A stretch of DNA of 64,000 nucleotides, from positions 5,200,501 through 5,264,500 of the forward strand of contig NZ_CP029043.1 of assembly GCF_003074055.1 (NCBI RefSeq). The letters run 5' to 3'. Below the pieces are notes generated by a model. It worked only from the letters and a program-made list of their open reading frames with translations, made no database searches and was not told where the DNA came from. Both the position numbers and the translations under genes were made by a program. Origin of the DNA: Streptomyces nigra. GTDB taxonomy: Bacteria; Actinomycetota; Actinomycetes; Streptomycetales; Streptomycetaceae. Below, piece after piece: positions 14,922-62,929 of this stretch; the stretch's first letter is position 1; each line of letters starts with the position of its first letter.

Positions 14922-16331
14922 GTGGCCGCCGCCAGTTCCCCCGATACGGCACCTGCCGCACCCGTCGCCAAGCGGGACCGCACGCACTACCTCTACATCG
15001 CGGTGATCATCGCGGTGGCCCTCGGTATCACCGTGGGCCTGGTCGCGCCCGACTTCGCCGTGGAGCTGAAGCCCATCGGCACGGGCTTCGTCGCACTGAT
15101 CAAGATGATGATCTCGCCGATCATCTTCTGCACGATCGTGCTGGGCATCGGCTCCGTGCGGAAGGCCGCCAAGGTCGGCGCCGTCGGCGGTATCGCGCTG
15201 GTCTACTTCCTGGCGATGTCGCTGGTCGCCCTCGCCATCGGCCTCGTCGTCGGCAACATCCTGGAGCCCGGTTCCGGCCTCGCCGTCACCGACGCCGTCA
15301 AGGACGTCGGCCAGGCGCAGGTGGACGCGGAGGCCAAGGACACCACCGAGTTCCTGCTCGGCATCATCCCGACCACGATCGTCTCCGCCTTCACCTCCGA
15401 GTCGGTCCTGCAGACCCTCCTGATCGCCCTGCTCGCCGGTTTCGCGCTGCAGGCCATGGGCTCCGCCGGCGAGCCGATCCTGCGCGGGGTGCAGCACATC
15501 CAGCGGCTCGTCTTCCGCATCCTCGCCATGGTGATGTGGGCCGCGCCGATCGGTGCCTTCGGCGCCATCGCCGCCGTCACCGGCTCGGCCGGCGTGGACG
15601 CGCTCAAGAGCCTCGCCGTGCTGATGCTGGGCTTCTACGTCACCTGCTTCCTGTTCGTCTTCCTGGTGCTGGGCGCGCTGCTGCGGATCGTCGCCGGCCT
15701 CAACGTCTTCACGCTGTTCAAGTACCTGGGCCGTGAGTTCCTGCTGATCCTGTCGACGTCGTCCTCCGAGTCGGCCCTGCCGCGCCTCATCGCGAAGATG
15801 GAGCACCTCGGCGTCAGCAAGCCCGTCGTCGGCATCACCGTCCCGACCGGCTACTCCTTCAACCTCGACGGCACCATGATCTACATGACCATGGCGTCCC
15901 TGTTCATCGCCGACGCCATGGGCACCCCGATGTCGATCGGCGAGCAGATCCCGCTGCTGCTCTTCCTGCTGGTCGCCTCCAAGGGCGCCGCCGGCGTCAC
16001 CGGCGCCGGGCTCGCGACCCTGGCCGGAGGTCTGCAGTCGCACAAGCCGGCCCTGGTGGACGGCATCGGCCTGATCGTCGGCATCGACCGCTTCATGAGC
16101 GAGGCCCGCGCCCTGACGAACTTCGCGGGCAACGCCGTCGCCACCGTGCTCATCGGCACCTGGACGAAGGAGATCGACCGGGAGCGCGTCGACGAGGTGC
16201 TCGCGGGCCGTATCCCCGTCGACGAGAAGACTCTGCTCGACGACCACGACCACGACCACGGCCACGACACCGAGCCCGCCCCGGCCGAGGCCCCCGGCCA
16301 GGACGGCGAGAAGGAGCTCGCGAAGGCGTGA
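14922..16331 (+). CDS. dctA: C4-dicarboxylate:cation symporter (DctA/GltP family)
   Basis: 469 residues from GTG at 14922 with AAGGAGGG about seven bases upstream. A member of the dicarboxylate/amino acid:cation symporter family with eight membrane helices and two re-entrant loops: the serine-rich loop LSTSSSESALPR, the GYSFNLDGTMIYMTMA helix and the ASKGAAGVTGAG loop are all intact. The last ~45 residues form a hydrophilic tail containing DDHDHDHGHD, unusual for DctA and possibly metal binding. Imports succinate, fumarate or malate. Divergent from a DcuS/DcuR-like pair; ends in a 16-bp-stem terminator. Confidence 0.92.
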   Translation: MAAASSPDTAPAAPVAKRDRTHYLYIAVIIAVALGITVGLVAPDFAVELKPIGTGFVALIKMMISPIIFCTIVLGIGSVRKAAKVGAVGGIALVYFLAMSLVALAIGLVVGNILEPGSGLAVTDAVKDVGQAQVDAEAKDTTEFLLGIIPTTIVSAFTSESVLQTLLIALLAGFALQAMGSAGEPILRGVQHIQRLVFRILAMVMWAAPIGAFGAIAAVTGSAGVDALKSLAVLMLGFYVTCFLFVFLVLGALLRIVAGLNVFTLFKYLGREFLLILSTSSSESALPRLIAKMEHLGVSKPVVGITVPTGYSFNLDGTMIYMTMASLFIADAMGTPMSIGEQIPLLLFLLVASKGAAGVTGAGLATLAGGLQSHKPALVDGIGLIVGIDRFMSEARALTNFAGNAVATVLIGTWTKEIDRERVDEVLAGRIPVDEKTLLDDHDHDHGHDTEPAPAEAPGQDGEKELAKA

Positions 16332-16354
16332 CCGCCCTGACCGGCCCCTTCGCA

Positions 16355-16395
16355 CCGGACGCCCGGCCCCGCCTGAACCGGGGCCGGGCGTCCGG
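16355..16395 (+). terminator. Strong terminator after dctA
   Basis: Perfect 16-bp stem: CCGGACGCCCGGCCCC (16355-16370) and GGGGCCGGGCGTCCGG (16380-16395), nine-base loop. Confidence 0.9.
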
Positions 16396-16408
16396 CCGTG
16401 TGCGGCCC

Positions 16409-16439
16409 TTGCCCTGACGTCGGCGTCAAGGACTACGTT
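16409..16439 (+). promoter_or_regulatory. MerR-type promoter/operator with 19-base spacer, probably leaderless
   Basis: TTGCCC (16409-16414) and TACGTT (16434-16439) are separated by exactly 19 bases, the long spacer typical of MerR-activated promoters. The spacer carries dyads TGACG (16415-16419) / CGTCA (16424-16428) and CCTTG (16407-16411) / CAAGG (16427-16431). The merR ATG at 16447 falls where transcription should start, and no Shine-Dalgarno precedes it. Confidence 0.6.
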
Positions 16440-16446
16440 CGACCGC

Positions 16447-16833
16447 ATGCGAATCGGCGAGCTGGCCGCACGGGCCGGGACCACGACGCGCACCCTGCGC
16501 TACTACGAGTCACGCGGGCTGCTGCCCGCGCGGCGCGGCCCCAACGGGCACCGGGTGTACGACGAGGGCGACCTGCGGTTGCTGCGGCAGATCAGGACGC
16601 TGCAGGACGTCGGGTTCGACCTGGAGGAGACCCGGCCGTTCGTGGAGTGCCTGCGGGCCGGCCATGCGGAGGGCGACACCTGTCCGGCCTCGCTCGCGGT
16701 GTACCGGCGCAAGCTGGACGAGCTCGACGCGCTGATCGGCGAGCTGCGGGCCGTCCGCGAGCAGATCGGGCTGCGGCTGGCGCTGGCCGGGAGCGAACCA
16801 CCGTTGTGCGAACTGGGAGGGCGGGAGCTGTGA
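16447..16833 (+). CDS. MerR-family transcriptional regulator
   Basis: 128 residues. Winged helix-turn-helix at 1-70 (MRIGELAARAGTTTRTLRYYESRGLLP), then a dimerisation helix (about 80-120). One central cysteine (CLRAGHAEGDTC) plus Cys near residue 122 could form a sensing pair: Cys76, Cys86 and a C-terminal Cys. That would fit thiol or metal sensing, but I cannot assign the inducer. Translationally coupled (GTGA overlap) to a thioredoxin, so its job is likely redox-linked control of its own operon through the 19-base-spacer promoter. Confidence 0.9.
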   Translation: MRIGELAARAGTTTRTLRYYESRGLLPARRGPNGHRVYDEGDLRLLRQIRTLQDVGFDLEETRPFVECLRAGHAEGDTCPASLAVYRRKLDELDALIGELRAVREQIGLRLALAGSEPPLCELGGREL

Positions 16834-17162
16834 TCAAGGCGGCGGGCGTGACCGAGGTGACGGACGCGGACTTCGCGGCGGAGGTGATCGGGGCGGAACT
16901 GCCGGTGCTGGTGGAGTTCACCGCCGACTGGTGCCCGCCGTGCCGGCAGATGGGGCCGGTGCTGGGCGCGCTGGCCGCGGAGGAGGGGGAGCGGCTGAAG
17001 GTCGTCCAGCTCGACGTGGACACCAATCCGCTGACGGCCAACGCCTACAAGGTGCTGTCCATGCCGACCTTCCTCGTCTTCCGTGACGGCGAGCCGGTGA
17101 AGGCGATGGTCGGGGCGCGGGCCAAGCGTCGGCTGCTGGAGGAGCTGGCAGACGTGCTCTGA
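16830..17162 (+). CDS. trxA: Thioredoxin with WCPPC active site
   Basis: 110 residues from GTG at 16830, overlapping the merR stop. Standard thioredoxin fold with FTADWCPPCRQMGPVL (Cys35, Cys38), DVDTNP, and the cis-proline motif SMPTFLVFRDG. The active site is CPPC in place of the usual CGPC; a proline there normally shifts redox potential and partner choice. Cytosolic, no signal peptide. The operon with MerR suggests an inducible, stress-responsive thioredoxin rather than the housekeeping one. Confidence 0.92.
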   Translation: MIKAAGVTEVTDADFAAEVIGAELPVLVEFTADWCPPCRQMGPVLGALAAEEGERLKVVQLDVDTNPLTANAYKVLSMPTFLVFRDGEPVKAMVGARAKRRLLEELADVL

Positions 17163-17183
17163 GCACCGCGCCACACGCAACGA

Positions 17184-17217
17184 GAAATCCCCCGGGCAAT
17201 TGCGCCCGGGGGATTTC
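17184..17217 (+). terminator. Terminator after trxA
   Basis: Perfect 14-bp stem GAAATCCCCCGGGC (17184-17197) and GCCCGGGGGATTTC (17204-17217) followed by TTT. Confidence 0.9.
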
Positions 17218-17303
17218 TTTGCGTATATTCAATGGTTCGCGACTTCGAATAGGGAAGGCGCGGAGAAGTTCAGTGAGCACAGTATATCCGGGCGGGAGCG
17301 GAA

Positions 17304-19550
17304 TTGTCAAACACCGAATTCCAAGACGGTGAATTGCGACGCGAGCAGGAATTCATCGACGGCCTGTACGCACGCGTCGACGCCCTGCGCGGCGACACCG
17401 AGGCCGGAGTCACGGACGCGCTCGCCCAGGGCGACAAGCCCATGCAGGCCCGTCTGGAGCGGGACATCCTCGTCGCCGAACGCTCGGGGCTGCTCGCCGC
17501 GCTGAACGCGGTCGACGGCTCCCTGTGCTTCGGCCGGATCGACCTCTCCTCGGGCGGCGCCCACCACATCGGCCGGATCGGTCTGCGCGCCGACGACACC
17601 GAACGCACCCCGATCCTCATCGACTGGCGGGCCGACGTCGCCCGCCCCTTCTACCTGGCCACCGGCCACACCCCGATGGGGCTGCGCCGCCGGCGGCACA
17701 TCACCACCGAGGGGCGGACGGTCACCGCCCTGCACGACGAGATCCTGGACCTCGGCGACCGGGAGCGCACCGGCCACGAGGACCCCAGCGGCGACGCCGT
17801 GCTCCTCGCGGCGCTCGACGCCGCCCGCACCGGCCGGATGCACGACATCGTGCAGACCATCCAGGCCGAGCAGGACGAGATCATCCGGGCACCGCACCGC
17901 GGCGTCCTCGTCGTCGAGGGCGGCCCCGGCACCGGCAAGACCGCCGTCGCCCTGCACCGCGCCGCCTACCTCCTCTACGAGCACCGCGAGCTGCTCGCCA
18001 AGCGGGCCGTCCTCATCGTCGGCCCCAACCCCGCCTTCCTCGGCTACATCGGCGAGGTGCTGCCCTCCCTCGGCGAGACCGGCGTCCTGCTGGCCACGGT
18101 CGGCGAACTCTTCCCCGGCGTGAAGGCCACCGCGACCGACACCCGCGAGGCGGCCGCCGTGAAGGGCCGCGCCGACATGGCCGACGTCCTCGCCGAGGTC
18201 GTCCGGGACTGGCAGGCGCTGCCCGACCCGGTCATCGCCATCGAGCACGACCGCGAGGTCCTCATGCTCGACGACGGACTGGTCAAGGTCGCCCGCGAGA
18301 AGACCCGCGCCGCCCGGCTGCCGCACAACGCGGCCCGGGAGCACTTCGAGGGGCACATCCTCAACACCCTCACCGAGCTGTACGCCGAGCGGGTCGGCAC
18401 CGACCCCTTCGACGGCACCAGCCTCCTCGACCCCAGCGACATCACCCAGATCCGCGACGAGATCGCCGAGAACCCCGAGGTGTGGGCGGCCATCGACCAG
18501 CTGTGGCCCCGGCTCACCCCGCAGCGCCTGGTCGCCGACTTCCTCGCCGACCCCGTCGGCTACCTCCCCGACGAGGACGCCGCCGCGATCCGGCGGCCCG
18601 TCACCCGGGCGTGGACGGTTGCGGACGTACCGCTGCTCGACGAGGCCGCCGAACTGCTCGGCGAGGACGACCGGCTCGCCCGGGTCCGCGCCGAGCGTGA
18701 GCGCGAGACGCAGATCGCCTACGCGCAGGGCGTGCTGGACGTGTCGTACGCGTCCCGGACCTACGAGTTCGACGACAAGGACGAGGAGGACAGCGAGGTC
18801 CTCTCCGCCCACGACATCATCGACGCCGAGCGGTTCGCCGAGCGGCAGGAGGAGGACGACCACCGCAGCGCCGCCGAGCGCGCGGCGGCCGACCGGACCT
18901 GGGCGTTCGGGCACATCATCGTCGACGAGGCGCAGGAGCTGTCGCCGATGGCCTGGCGCCTGCTCATGCGGCGCGTCCCCACCCGGTCGATGACCCTCGT
19001 CGGCGACCCGGCGCAGACCGCCGAGGCGGCCGGCGTCGGCTCCTGGGAGAAGATCCTCCAGCCGTATGTCGAGGACCGCTGGGAGCACACCCGGCTCGGC
19101 GTCAACTACCGCACGCCCGCCGAGATCATGGAGCTGGCGGCGGCCGTCGTCCGGGCGGAGGACCCGGACTTCGAACCGCCGAGTTCCGTACGGTCGACGG
19201 GAGAGCGGCCCTGGGTGCGGGCCACCGACGATCTGCCTGAGGCCGTGGCCTCGGCGGTGAAGGAGCTGACCCCTGCGGAGGGGCGGCTCGCGGTCATCGC
19301 GCCGCGGCATCTGCACCGGCGGCTGGCCGCCCGGCTGGACGGGGTGACGGCGGGGGAGCAGCCCGATCTCACGCGTACGGTCGTGCTCCTCGACCCCCGT
19401 CAGGCCAAGGGCCTGGAGTTCGACTCGGTGCTGGTGGTCGAGCCGGGGCTGTACGGCACGAGCGACTTGTACGTGGCCCTGACGCGTGCGACGCAACGCC
19501 TGGGTGTCCTCCACACGGGCCGCCTCCCCAAGGCCCTGGCCGAGAACTGA
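17304..19550 (+). CDS. helR: HelD/HelR-like UvrD-family helicase (RNA polymerase-associated)
   Basis: 748 residues from TTG at 17304, GGGAGCGGAA upstream. Superfamily-1A motor: Walker A EGGPGTGKTAVAL (about residue 210), Walker B DEAQELSPMAWRLL (about 540), GDPAQTAEA, GVNYRTPAEI, and a C-terminal VALTRATQRLGVLH. The N-terminal ~150 residues start with a helical hairpin (residues 8-75, REQEFIDGLYARVDAL ...) instead of a UvrD start, and there is a large insertion between motifs; both are hallmarks of actinobacterial HelD, which removes stalled RNA polymerase from DNA. In S. venezuelae the homologue HelR displaces rifamycin. I assign HelR by architecture; DNA-repair helicase is the alternative. 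Monocistronic, ending in a dispersed palindrome. Leader and start are AT-rich compared with neighbours. Confidence 0.82.
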   Translation: MSNTEFQDGELRREQEFIDGLYARVDALRGDTEAGVTDALAQGDKPMQARLERDILVAERSGLLAALNAVDGSLCFGRIDLSSGGAHHIGRIGLRADDTERTPILIDWRADVARPFYLATGHTPMGLRRRRHITTEGRTVTALHDEILDLGDRERTGHEDPSGDAVLLAALDAARTGRMHDIVQTIQAEQDEIIRAPHRGVLVVEGGPGTGKTAVALHRAAYLLYEHRELLAKRAVLIVGPNPAFLGYIGEVLPSLGETGVLLATVGELFPGVKATATDTREAAAVKGRADMADVLAEVVRDWQALPDPVIAIEHDREVLMLDDGLVKVAREKTRAARLPHNAAREHFEGHILNTLTELYAERVGTDPFDGTSLLDPSDITQIRDEIAENPEVWAAIDQLWPRLTPQRLVADFLADPVGYLPDEDAAAIRRPVTRAWTVADVPLLDEAAELLGEDDRLARVRAERERETQIAYAQGVLDVSYASRTYEFDDKDEEDSEVLSAHDIIDAERFAERQEEDDHRSAAERAAADRTWAFGHIIVDEAQELSPMAWRLLMRRVPTRSMTLVGDPAQTAEAAGVGSWEKILQPYVEDRWEHTRLGVNYRTPAEIMELAAAVVRAEDPDFEPPSSVRSTGERPWVRATDDLPEAVASAVKELTPAEGRLAVIAPRHLHRRLAARLDGVTAGEQPDLTRTVVLLDPRQAKGLEFDSVLVVEPGLYGTSDLYVALTRATQRLGVLHTGRLPKALAEN

Positions 19551-62550: not shown

Positions 62551-62750
62551 TTCCTCCCCATCTGTCATCGGAACCTGAGAGGTTCGTCATGACCGCGCGT
62601 GGGCATGACTTGCACCTTGGGTGGGACCACCGGCGACGGCGGCCCGCTTTTCAGATGTGCCTCGCCCGCGCGGTAACGGGGCCTGAGAGATTCAAGGGAG
62701 GGACTTGCTCCTTCGGCGCCCCGGCGGCGTACAGCCGGGGACTCTCCCGC
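62551..62750 (-). ncRNA. Tandem glycine riboswitch upstream of gcvT
   Basis: On the minus strand two aptamers are readable. Aptamer 1: GGGAGAGT (62741-62748), GCGCCGAAGGAGCAAG (near 62704-62719), GAATCTCTCAGGC (62681-62693). Aptamer 2: CCAAGGTGCAAGTCATG (near 62604-62620), GAACCTCTCAGGTTC (62571-62585) followed by GATGACAGATGGGGAGG (62553-62569). These are the conserved segments of glycine riboswitches, which switch on glycine cleavage genes when glycine is high. The second aptamer ends 35 bases before the gcvT ATG, and no intrinsic terminator is obvious there, so control may act on translation. Confidence 0.95.
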
Positions 62751-62929
62751 GCGGATTCAAACGGCCGGTATGCAGTTGGCGCCGCCATCATCGCATGCCC
62801 GGCCCCGTCTGCCCCAGGCCACATCTGTAACCGGCCTGTGGCAGTAAGCGAACGAAAACAGAGAGGATCCTCCATTACCTTCTCTTTACGCTCGGTGGGG
62901 ATGGGGAAGCCTGTATGCGGAGGAGGACG
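62751..62929. other. Divergent promoter region of riboswitch operon and P-loop gene
   Basis: About 180 bases between riboswitch and the P-loop protein gene. The gcv promoter must lie just upstream of 62750 on the minus strand and the P-loop gene promoter near 62860-62910, where the DNA is AT-richer than the surroundings. I see no consensus pair strong enough to place them. Confidence 0.35.

Follow-up and report, generated by a model that had tools for sequence, protein, structure and literature searches.

In the operators of CueR, ZntR, CadR and MerR, a dyad lies in a promoter spacer of 19-20 bp, and MerR proteins pass their signal through the elbow between their helices. NmlR and AdhR are thiol-responsive MerR regulators with one cysteine near the DNA-binding part, SoxR has a four-cysteine iron-sulfur motif and TipAL carries a large ligand-binding domain. 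Thioredoxin in Streptomyces is thought to be controlled through sigma-R. In the sigma-R/RsrA-trxBA loop, thioredoxin is induced under thiol stress and in turn shuts down the sensor. AdpA has also been credited with thioredoxin control in Streptomyces, according to the excerpted text of PMC9952706.

Here we describe a merR-trxA locus of Streptomyces nigra, found in a 64-kb window (the whole stretch of DNA that was analysed) of its 7.64-Mb, one-contig genome. The locus very probably forms one merR-trxA unit served by a MerR-type, leaderless promoter of its own. Like CueR, ZntR, CadR and MerR, its regulator has a winged helix-turn-helix and a long dimer helix, and its Cys79 aligns with a ZntR cysteine, which we take to be ZntR Cys79. 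It differs from these metal sensors in scoring under their cut-offs, in lacking the C-terminal two-cysteine metal loop, in having an extra invariant Cys68 and in its partner gene, which is trxA and not a gene for a metal pump or metal enzyme. The regulator is short like NmlR and AdhR, presumably shares their thiol chemistry and has HiNmlR among its nearest folds, but it has two elbow cysteines and reaches only 35.4 bits against the NmlR cut-off of 175. SoxR has the MerR fold and the redox theme in common with it; however, the regulator scores 44.4 bits with the SoxR model (cut-off 116.9), and no four-cysteine iron-sulfur motif is seen in the alignment. TipAL is also a MerR-family protein of Streptomyces, and excerpts of PMC3917276 describe covalent capture of thiopeptides by TipAS, but the regulator studied here has no large ligand-binding domain. 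Whereas sigma-R/RsrA is a pair of a sigma factor and an anti-sigma factor, the window has one DNA-binding protein, predicted to share an mRNA with its thioredoxin. By build and promoter this protein is a MerR switch, and we did not find its elbow cysteine pair with a thioredoxin partner described: no title among the matches listed in our literature searches describes a MerR-thioredoxin circuit.

Loci compared

Two samples underlie the counts given below. The 127-locus set (L001-L030, L039-L055 and L056-L135) contains the best matches from 200 and 296 genomes plus chosen weaker matches; L031-L038, which are pattern matches, were left out. The other sample consists of 80 named loci among the matches listed, and one regulator alignment used 48 of these 80 plus the window. 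The two sets are not independent, since they partly overlap (L046/L219).

Organization of the merR-trxA locus

The features of the locus, in window coordinates, are the following.

14922-16331, upstream of the operon: dicarboxylate transporter gene (Pfam)
16355-16395, plus strand: perfect 17-bp hairpin in the gap between the transporter gene and the operon, a possible terminator and insulator
16409-16414, plus strand: -35 element TTGCCC (direct reading, relatives compared)
16412-16431, plus strand: operator dyad CCCTGACG-TCGG-CGTCAAGG (consensus CCTTGACG-N4-CGTCAAGG, from 127 relatives)
16415-16433, plus strand: spacer of 19 bp (direct reading)
16434-16439, plus strand: -10 element TACGTT, 19 bp from the -35 element (dyad distance kept in relatives)
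16447-16449, plus strand: ATG, the predicted transcription start (leaderless), 7 nt past the -10 element (by comparison)
16447-16833, plus strand: merR, MerR-family regulator of 128 aa (Pfam, alignment, AlphaFold model)
16648-16650, 16681-16683 and 16807-16809, plus strand: merR codons for Cys68, Cys79 and Cys121 (direct reading)
16830-17162, plus strand: trxA, thioredoxin of 110 aa with a GTG start (Pfam PF00085, WCPPC)
16932-16934 and 16941-16943, plus strand: cysteine codons of the trxA WCPPC motif (direct reading)
17183-17218, plus strand: perfect hairpin of 15 bp, T-rich on its 3' side (ATTTCTTT), probably the operon terminator
17304-19550, downstream of the trxA hairpin: gene whose product resembles the RNA polymerase recycling motors HelD/HelR

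The GTG start codon of trxA overlaps the merR stop codon by 4 bp (GTGA, 16830-16833). This 4-bp overlap is the commonest arrangement in the relatives (24 of 121, with gaps extrapolated from tblastn), and trxA lies downstream of merR in 121 of the 127 relatives and in 78 of the 80 named loci among the matches listed. The overlap and the linkage bear out the first-pass annotation of this DNA, which had read the two genes as one unit. Its limits for that unit, 16407 and 17162, need correction: the promoter begins at 16409, and the 3' hairpin at 17183-17218 falls outside. A 254-aa frame from 16398, which shares the trxA end, was considered as the first gene and rejected, the MerR frame being the conserved one.

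The trxA product matches PF00085 with 90.6 bits (cut-off 23.5) and has WCPPC as its CxxC motif, while its TIGR01068 score of 91.5 is just under the cut-off of 96.8. The first-pass annotation had listed CPPC among the features of the circuit. The motif is present in the window, but CGPC stands in its place in 33 of the 121 trxA-linked relatives and in 27 of the 78 named ones among the matches listed. Thus, CPPC is not part of the identity of the circuit and is ruled out as its defining mark.

Both hairpins fold far better than shuffles, though a simple terminator scan flagged neither of them: the region 16340-16400 folds with -44.9 kcal/mol (z -5.0) and the region 17170-17225 with -39.4 kcal/mol (z -7.8). 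The hairpin at 17183-17218 probably ends the merR-trxA operon as a terminator. A terminator or insulator role for the upstream hairpin at 16355-16395 is put forward only as a possibility, because it has no T-run and was not flagged by the scan.

Beyond the operon, the best curated matches of the 17304-19550 product are HelD/HelR-type models, with scores under their cut-offs. By eye, TTGCGC is seen within the trxA hairpin (loop and 3' arm), 18 bp ahead of TATATT (window 17195-17303), and a promoter of the HelD gene may thus be embedded in the terminator of trxA; a conserved leader precedes the HelD start (also by eye). On the minus strand, 17281-17310 contains a near-consensus TTGACA-18-TATACT facing trxA, and a similar match occurs in 32 of 78 named loci among the matches listed. 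This match may drive a short RNA that ends at the hairpin, or may be a by-product, given its overlap with the HelD ribosome-binding site and start. An Rfam scan gave no match at the merR-trxA locus. Far from it in the window, on the minus strand at 62552-62759, there are tandem glycine riboswitch aptamers (RF00504, 70.4 and 39 bits).

Promoter and operator dyad

The MerR-type promoter with a 19-bp spacer that the first-pass annotation had reported can be read directly as TTGCCC-19-TACGTT. It has the layout of MerR-family promoters, with a dyad operator across a spacer of 19-20 bp, and the dyad fits CCTTGACG/CGTCAAGG at 15 of 16 arm positions. Dyads had been noted in the spacer; a near-perfect dyad is indeed located there, but it also overlaps the -35 element by three bases and is not a feature of the spacer alone. 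A single instance of the pattern TTG-N22-TANNNT-N7-ATG is present in the 64-kb window, and 100 dinucleotide shuffles contain none. Comparison with relatives tests the layout more stringently than this count does.

The dyad-to-(-10) distance of the window, corresponding to the 19-bp spacer, is kept in 122 of the 127 relatives and in 78 of the 80 named loci among the matches listed; since the -35 element was placed by reference to the dyad, '19' is a measure of this distance. Five loci (L054, L077, L091, L092 and L095) had no -10 element by the rule used and were counted as misses; in two of them (L054 and L095) the dyad is poor as well. The -35 element of the relatives is mostly TTGCCT, TTGCCC or TGGCGT. 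Among the 122 loci, the register of the window holds a TTG-type element in 71, TGGC in 38 and TCGCCC in 1; in the remaining 12, TTGACC or TTGACA stands one base farther from the -10 element, giving a 20-bp spacer. The same register contains 50 TTG-type, 13 TGGC, 8 TGAC and 7 other elements in 78 named loci among the matches listed. The dyad arms have at most 2 mismatches in 16 positions in 102 of the 127 relatives and at most 5 in 125. When 3,000 random 160-nt stretches of the window were scored, 8 had no more than 2 mismatches, some of these stretches possibly including the operator, and 588 had no more than 5, so that scores of 4-5 mismatches mean little.

This arrangement bears on a very unlikely alternative, a plain repressor or constitutive operon in which MerR would only repress itself, the cysteines would be structural and thioredoxin would track growth or AdpA. 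The fixed operator-promoter distance (122 of 127) and the position of the operator over an over-long spacer are the layout of activation by DNA distortion, and argue against it.

A general promoter scan was blind to the merR promoter because it allowed only spacers of 16-18 bp. Of the genome's 20 further MerR-type genes, L275 has TTGCTT-19-TAGCGT with the start codon 7 nt on, and L265 has a similar layout by eye; the 19-bp leaderless-type layout is not exclusive to merR-trxA within its own genome. A simple pattern found no sigma-R-type site upstream of merR, the only nearby match being inside trxA, and such a site at the merR promoter was rejected on this basis.

Probable leaderless start

The ATG is located 6 or 7 nt past the -10 element in 87 of the 127 loci and 13-79 nt past it in 35, with no locus at 8-12 nt. 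The 80 named loci among the matches listed are divided similarly into 60 with a gap of 6-7 nt, 18 with a leader and 2 without a -10 element. Shine-Dalgarno matches longer than 3 nt are found in 0 of 87 leaderless and 30 of 35 leadered loci of the 127-locus set, and in 0 of 60 and 16 of 18, respectively, of the named loci among the matches listed; their absence from leaderless loci is partly forced, since the tested stretch overlaps the promoter. The empty 8-12 nt class is a cleaner sign of the predicted leaderless start. As far as these comparisons of sequence can tell, the merR ATG is probably the 5' end of a leaderless mRNA, which agrees with the earlier placement of the ATG at the expected transcription start.

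The promoter thus appears to be kept while translation begins either at the presumed 5' end or after a leader with a ribosome-binding site. In a FastTree phylogeny of 208 rows, 200 of them with an assigned state and with L054, L091 and L095 left out, the leaderless/leadered state switched at least 15 times, a number that may be inflated by the use of FastTree on short proteins, by overlapping rows and by tree noise.

The regulator and its cysteines

The regulator matches PF13411 (MerR_1, 69.7 bits, cut-off 21.6), PF00376 (MerR, 58.0 bits, cut-off 28.2) and PF09278 (MerR-DNA-bind, 42.6 bits, cut-off 25.4). Pfam, the structure model and fold matches all indicate the helix-turn-helix domain and dimerisation helix of the MerR family. 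No curated MerR subfamily cut-off is reached: the scores are 63.2 for ZntR (cut-off 143), 54.7 for CueR (147.4), 45.5 for MerR (150.85) and 43.8 for CadR-PbrR (151.45), besides those for SoxR and NmlR given above.

Several cysteines had been noted in the regulator. Two of them, Cys68 and Cys79, do not vary in any of the 127 relatives or of the 80 named loci among the matches listed, and the third, Cys121, occurs in 113 of the 127 and in 68 of the 80 named loci among the matches listed. In the AlphaFold model (mean pLDDT 93, pTM 0.76), Cys68 is near the end of a helix spanning residues 59-70, and Cys79 is just ahead of a helix spanning residues 80-115. Given these modelled helix limits, the two cysteines would flank the elbow between helix 4 and helix 5. 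A pair that is invariant in both sets is hard to see as structural in a cytoplasmic protein, which is a second point against mere autorepression.

The cysteines could also serve a soft-metal sensor, in which a thiophilic metal (Hg, Cd, Cu(I), Zn or As) would be bound via Cys79, Cys68 and sometimes Cys121, and TrxA would be made because such metals deplete thiols. ZntR and CueR are the best curated relatives of the regulator, and the PDB entries nearest to it by sequence and by fold include CueR, CadR, PbrR and MerR (and also NmlR). The frequency of Cys121 fits a metal site as well, and a metal ligand keeps some weight because Cys79 matches the ZntR cysteine in the sequence alignment. We nevertheless consider this reading unlikely. 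The ZntR and CueR scores are far under their cut-offs, the C-terminal metal loop (C-x5-11-C past residue 97) is found in only 1 of 121 trxA-linked proteins, and 13 of these 121 have no cysteine at all past residue 97. The partners identified beside the regulator or fused to it, namely trxA, a luciferase-like monooxygenase gene or a peroxiredoxin domain, also speak against it.

Relatives with other partners

Six of the 127 relatives lack trxA. Two of them (L091 and L095) are fusions, one (L068) has a monooxygenase gene, and no partner gene was identified for L054, L079 and L080. In the two fusions, as well as in L136, L137 and L140, MerR is fused in frame to a peroxiredoxin-like domain; Pfam Redoxin and AhpC-TSA were over the cut-off in the two fusions tested. 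All five fusions keep Cys68, Cys79 and a GC[T/S]xExC motif. A fusion query found a match at 1e-40 in 15 of 246 class genomes; 4 of these span both domains and 11 cover the peroxiredoxin part alone. Six plasmid records, all from Streptomyces, contain the full fusion, and it is annotated as one CDS in each of the two Streptomyces plasmid records examined (L293 and L294). By eye, the fusion genes have their own, different dyad and a spacer of about 20 bp. The L140 fusion gene looks leaderless by eye.

A luciferase-like monooxygenase gene (PF00296, 160-177 bits, cut-off 27.9) follows merR in L068 and in two Nocardia loci (L233 and L244), and a third Nocardia locus (L247) has trxA. L138 (62%) has the operator without a trxA match, and beyond residue 80 or so its MerR frame no longer follows the family. 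L139 (49%) has trxA.

Fifteen sister MerRs (L141-L155; 41-54% in the best segment) gave no trxA match in stretches of roughly 2 kb. They have a cysteine at position 68 in 14 of 15 and at position 79 in 12 of 15. Since the Cys68/Cys79 pair is shared by sisters without trxA in these stretches, it does not by itself specify the trxA circuit, and is older than the trxA link. The six neighbours of sister MerRs that were tested are two SDR genes, two hydrolases, one FMN reductase and one aminotransferase. A wider electrophile-sensing MerR group may exist beyond the trxA-linked loci.

Electrophile sensing in a narrower sense is a further alternative, and we regard it as quite improbable. Here, Cys68 or Cys79 would be alkylated by quinones or dehydroalanine peptides such as thiostrepton, in a TipA-like manner and with no disulfide. 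The monooxygenase partner in three relatives is in line with this, as are five of the six sister-MerR neighbours tested (SDR, hydrolase or FMN reductase, the sixth being the aminotransferase). However, alkylation is not reversed by thioredoxin, so that feedback would have to be indirect.

Distribution and targets

The MerR protein has a match at 1e-40 or better in 156 of 200 family genomes. At 1e-15, where paralogues can pass as well, 90 of 296 genomes of the class have one. Among 296 phylum genomes, 10 have a match at 1e-30, all from the same class as the window. The closest named MerR relatives among the matches listed are from Streptomyces; the hosts among the matches listed include Streptomyces, Kitasatospora, Actinacidiphila, Umezawaea, Lentzea, Amycolatopsis, Saccharothrix, Actinomadura, Nocardia, Hamadaea, Acrocarpospora, Micromonospora, Nocardiopsis, Microbispora, Nonomuraea, Pseudonocardia and Planotetraspora. 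Viral contigs contributed 11 loci that are at most 50% identical. The putative circuit is common but not universal across the sampled actinomycetes.

The operator-promoter pattern has one match in its own genome at up to 2 mismatches; 'one target' is valid for close copies of the site only, because weaker sites are missed. Of 41 genomes, own included, 21 have a pattern match (one in 20 genomes, two in 1) and 20 have none. The reversed control pattern gave 4 matches in the same genome search.

Published data for Streptomyces coelicolor

Excerpts of PMC8655204 give the S. coelicolor gene order as SCO5437 (MerR), SCO5438 (trxA2) and SCO5439 (HelD). Because this order matches that of the window, we take SCO5437-5438 as the apparent orthologues of merR-trxA, judged on gene order alone.

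In strain PS04 grown with thiostrepton at 1 ug/ml, in which TopA was about 22% higher, SCO5437 changed by log2 +2.65 relative to the wild type under control conditions (excerpts of PMC6637917, including its Table 7). In the same excerpts, the authors attribute the rise to supercoiling ('topA-upregulation') and state that this regulator set shares none with the set responding to novobiocin, which relaxes DNA. Four of the 11 regulators in the table are MerR-family proteins, and all four are up. The probability of at least 4 MerR proteins among the 8 rising regulators is 0.00005-0.0004 at a MerR share of 3-5%, where the share is an assumption and the test was picked after the table was seen. According to the excerpts of PMC3917276, thiostrepton induces tipA, and the dehydroalanine tail matters for induction. 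With the covalent capture by TipAS, this makes direct induction of SCO5437 by thiostrepton an alternative reading. The rise at only about 22% more TopA, the MerR share of the table and the lack of overlap with the novobiocin set would all suit alkylation of the regulator. On the other hand, TopA level and strain differ as well, and no RNA-Seq control of the wild type with thiostrepton was found in the excerpts of PMC6637917. In the data as excerpted, the effect of thiostrepton is confounded with TopA overproduction, and they fit both explanations.

The plain-repressor alternative draws its support from the excerpts of PMC9952706, where trxA2 rose only weakly with polysulfide in S. coelicolor and AdpA, tested on a 299-bp trxA2 probe, is reported as a direct activator of thioredoxin genes. 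If the S. coelicolor genes overlap as in the window, this probe would be largely inside merR.

Proposed mechanism and implications

Thiol or electrophile sensing is the best, if unproven, reading of merR-trxA. It is favoured by the link to trxA, by the fusions with a peroxiredoxin domain, by the luciferase-like monooxygenase gene next to merR at three loci and by the lack of the metal loop. We lean slightly towards the whole thiol-switch reading, a self-regulated merR-trxA operon with a thiol-reactive signal. A MerR dimer would bind the dyad across the 19-bp spacer of its own promoter and, at rest, would hold the over-long promoter in an inactive geometry. A thiol-reactive signal (an oxidant, an electrophile or reactive sulfur) may alter Cys68 and Cys79, perhaps through a disulfide. 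The altered dimer would distort the DNA and bring the -35 and -10 elements into line, so that RNA polymerase begins transcription at the first base of the merR ATG. One leaderless mRNA would give MerR and then TrxA, by coupled translation over the GTGA overlap. TrxA would reduce damaged thiols, probably including those of the regulator, and thereby close the loop. The layout of the locus, its conservation, the linkage of the two genes and the invariant cysteines with their position in the predicted fold are observed. We infer the DNA binding, autoregulation, signal, disulfide, start site and feedback in this scheme partly by analogy with the MerR mechanism as generally understood.

A broader and more doubtful proposal is that these loci represent a new class of one-component thiol-switch MerRs of actinomycetes, with a Cys68-Cys79 elbow and a redox partner wired to the sensor. 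In such a class, thioredoxin would reset the sensor, a fused peroxiredoxin would oxidise it as a built-in peroxide relay, and thiopeptides such as thiostrepton might be natural inducers. The MerR-peroxiredoxin fusions would allow a direct test of whether a peroxidase can be the sensing part of a transcription factor. The relatives also offer a natural experiment, in which the promoter and operator are kept while the start codon has moved between leaderless and leadered forms. If the thiol-switch reading is true, merR-trxA would be a second, self-contained thiol circuit of Streptomyces, small enough to be rebuilt in a test tube.
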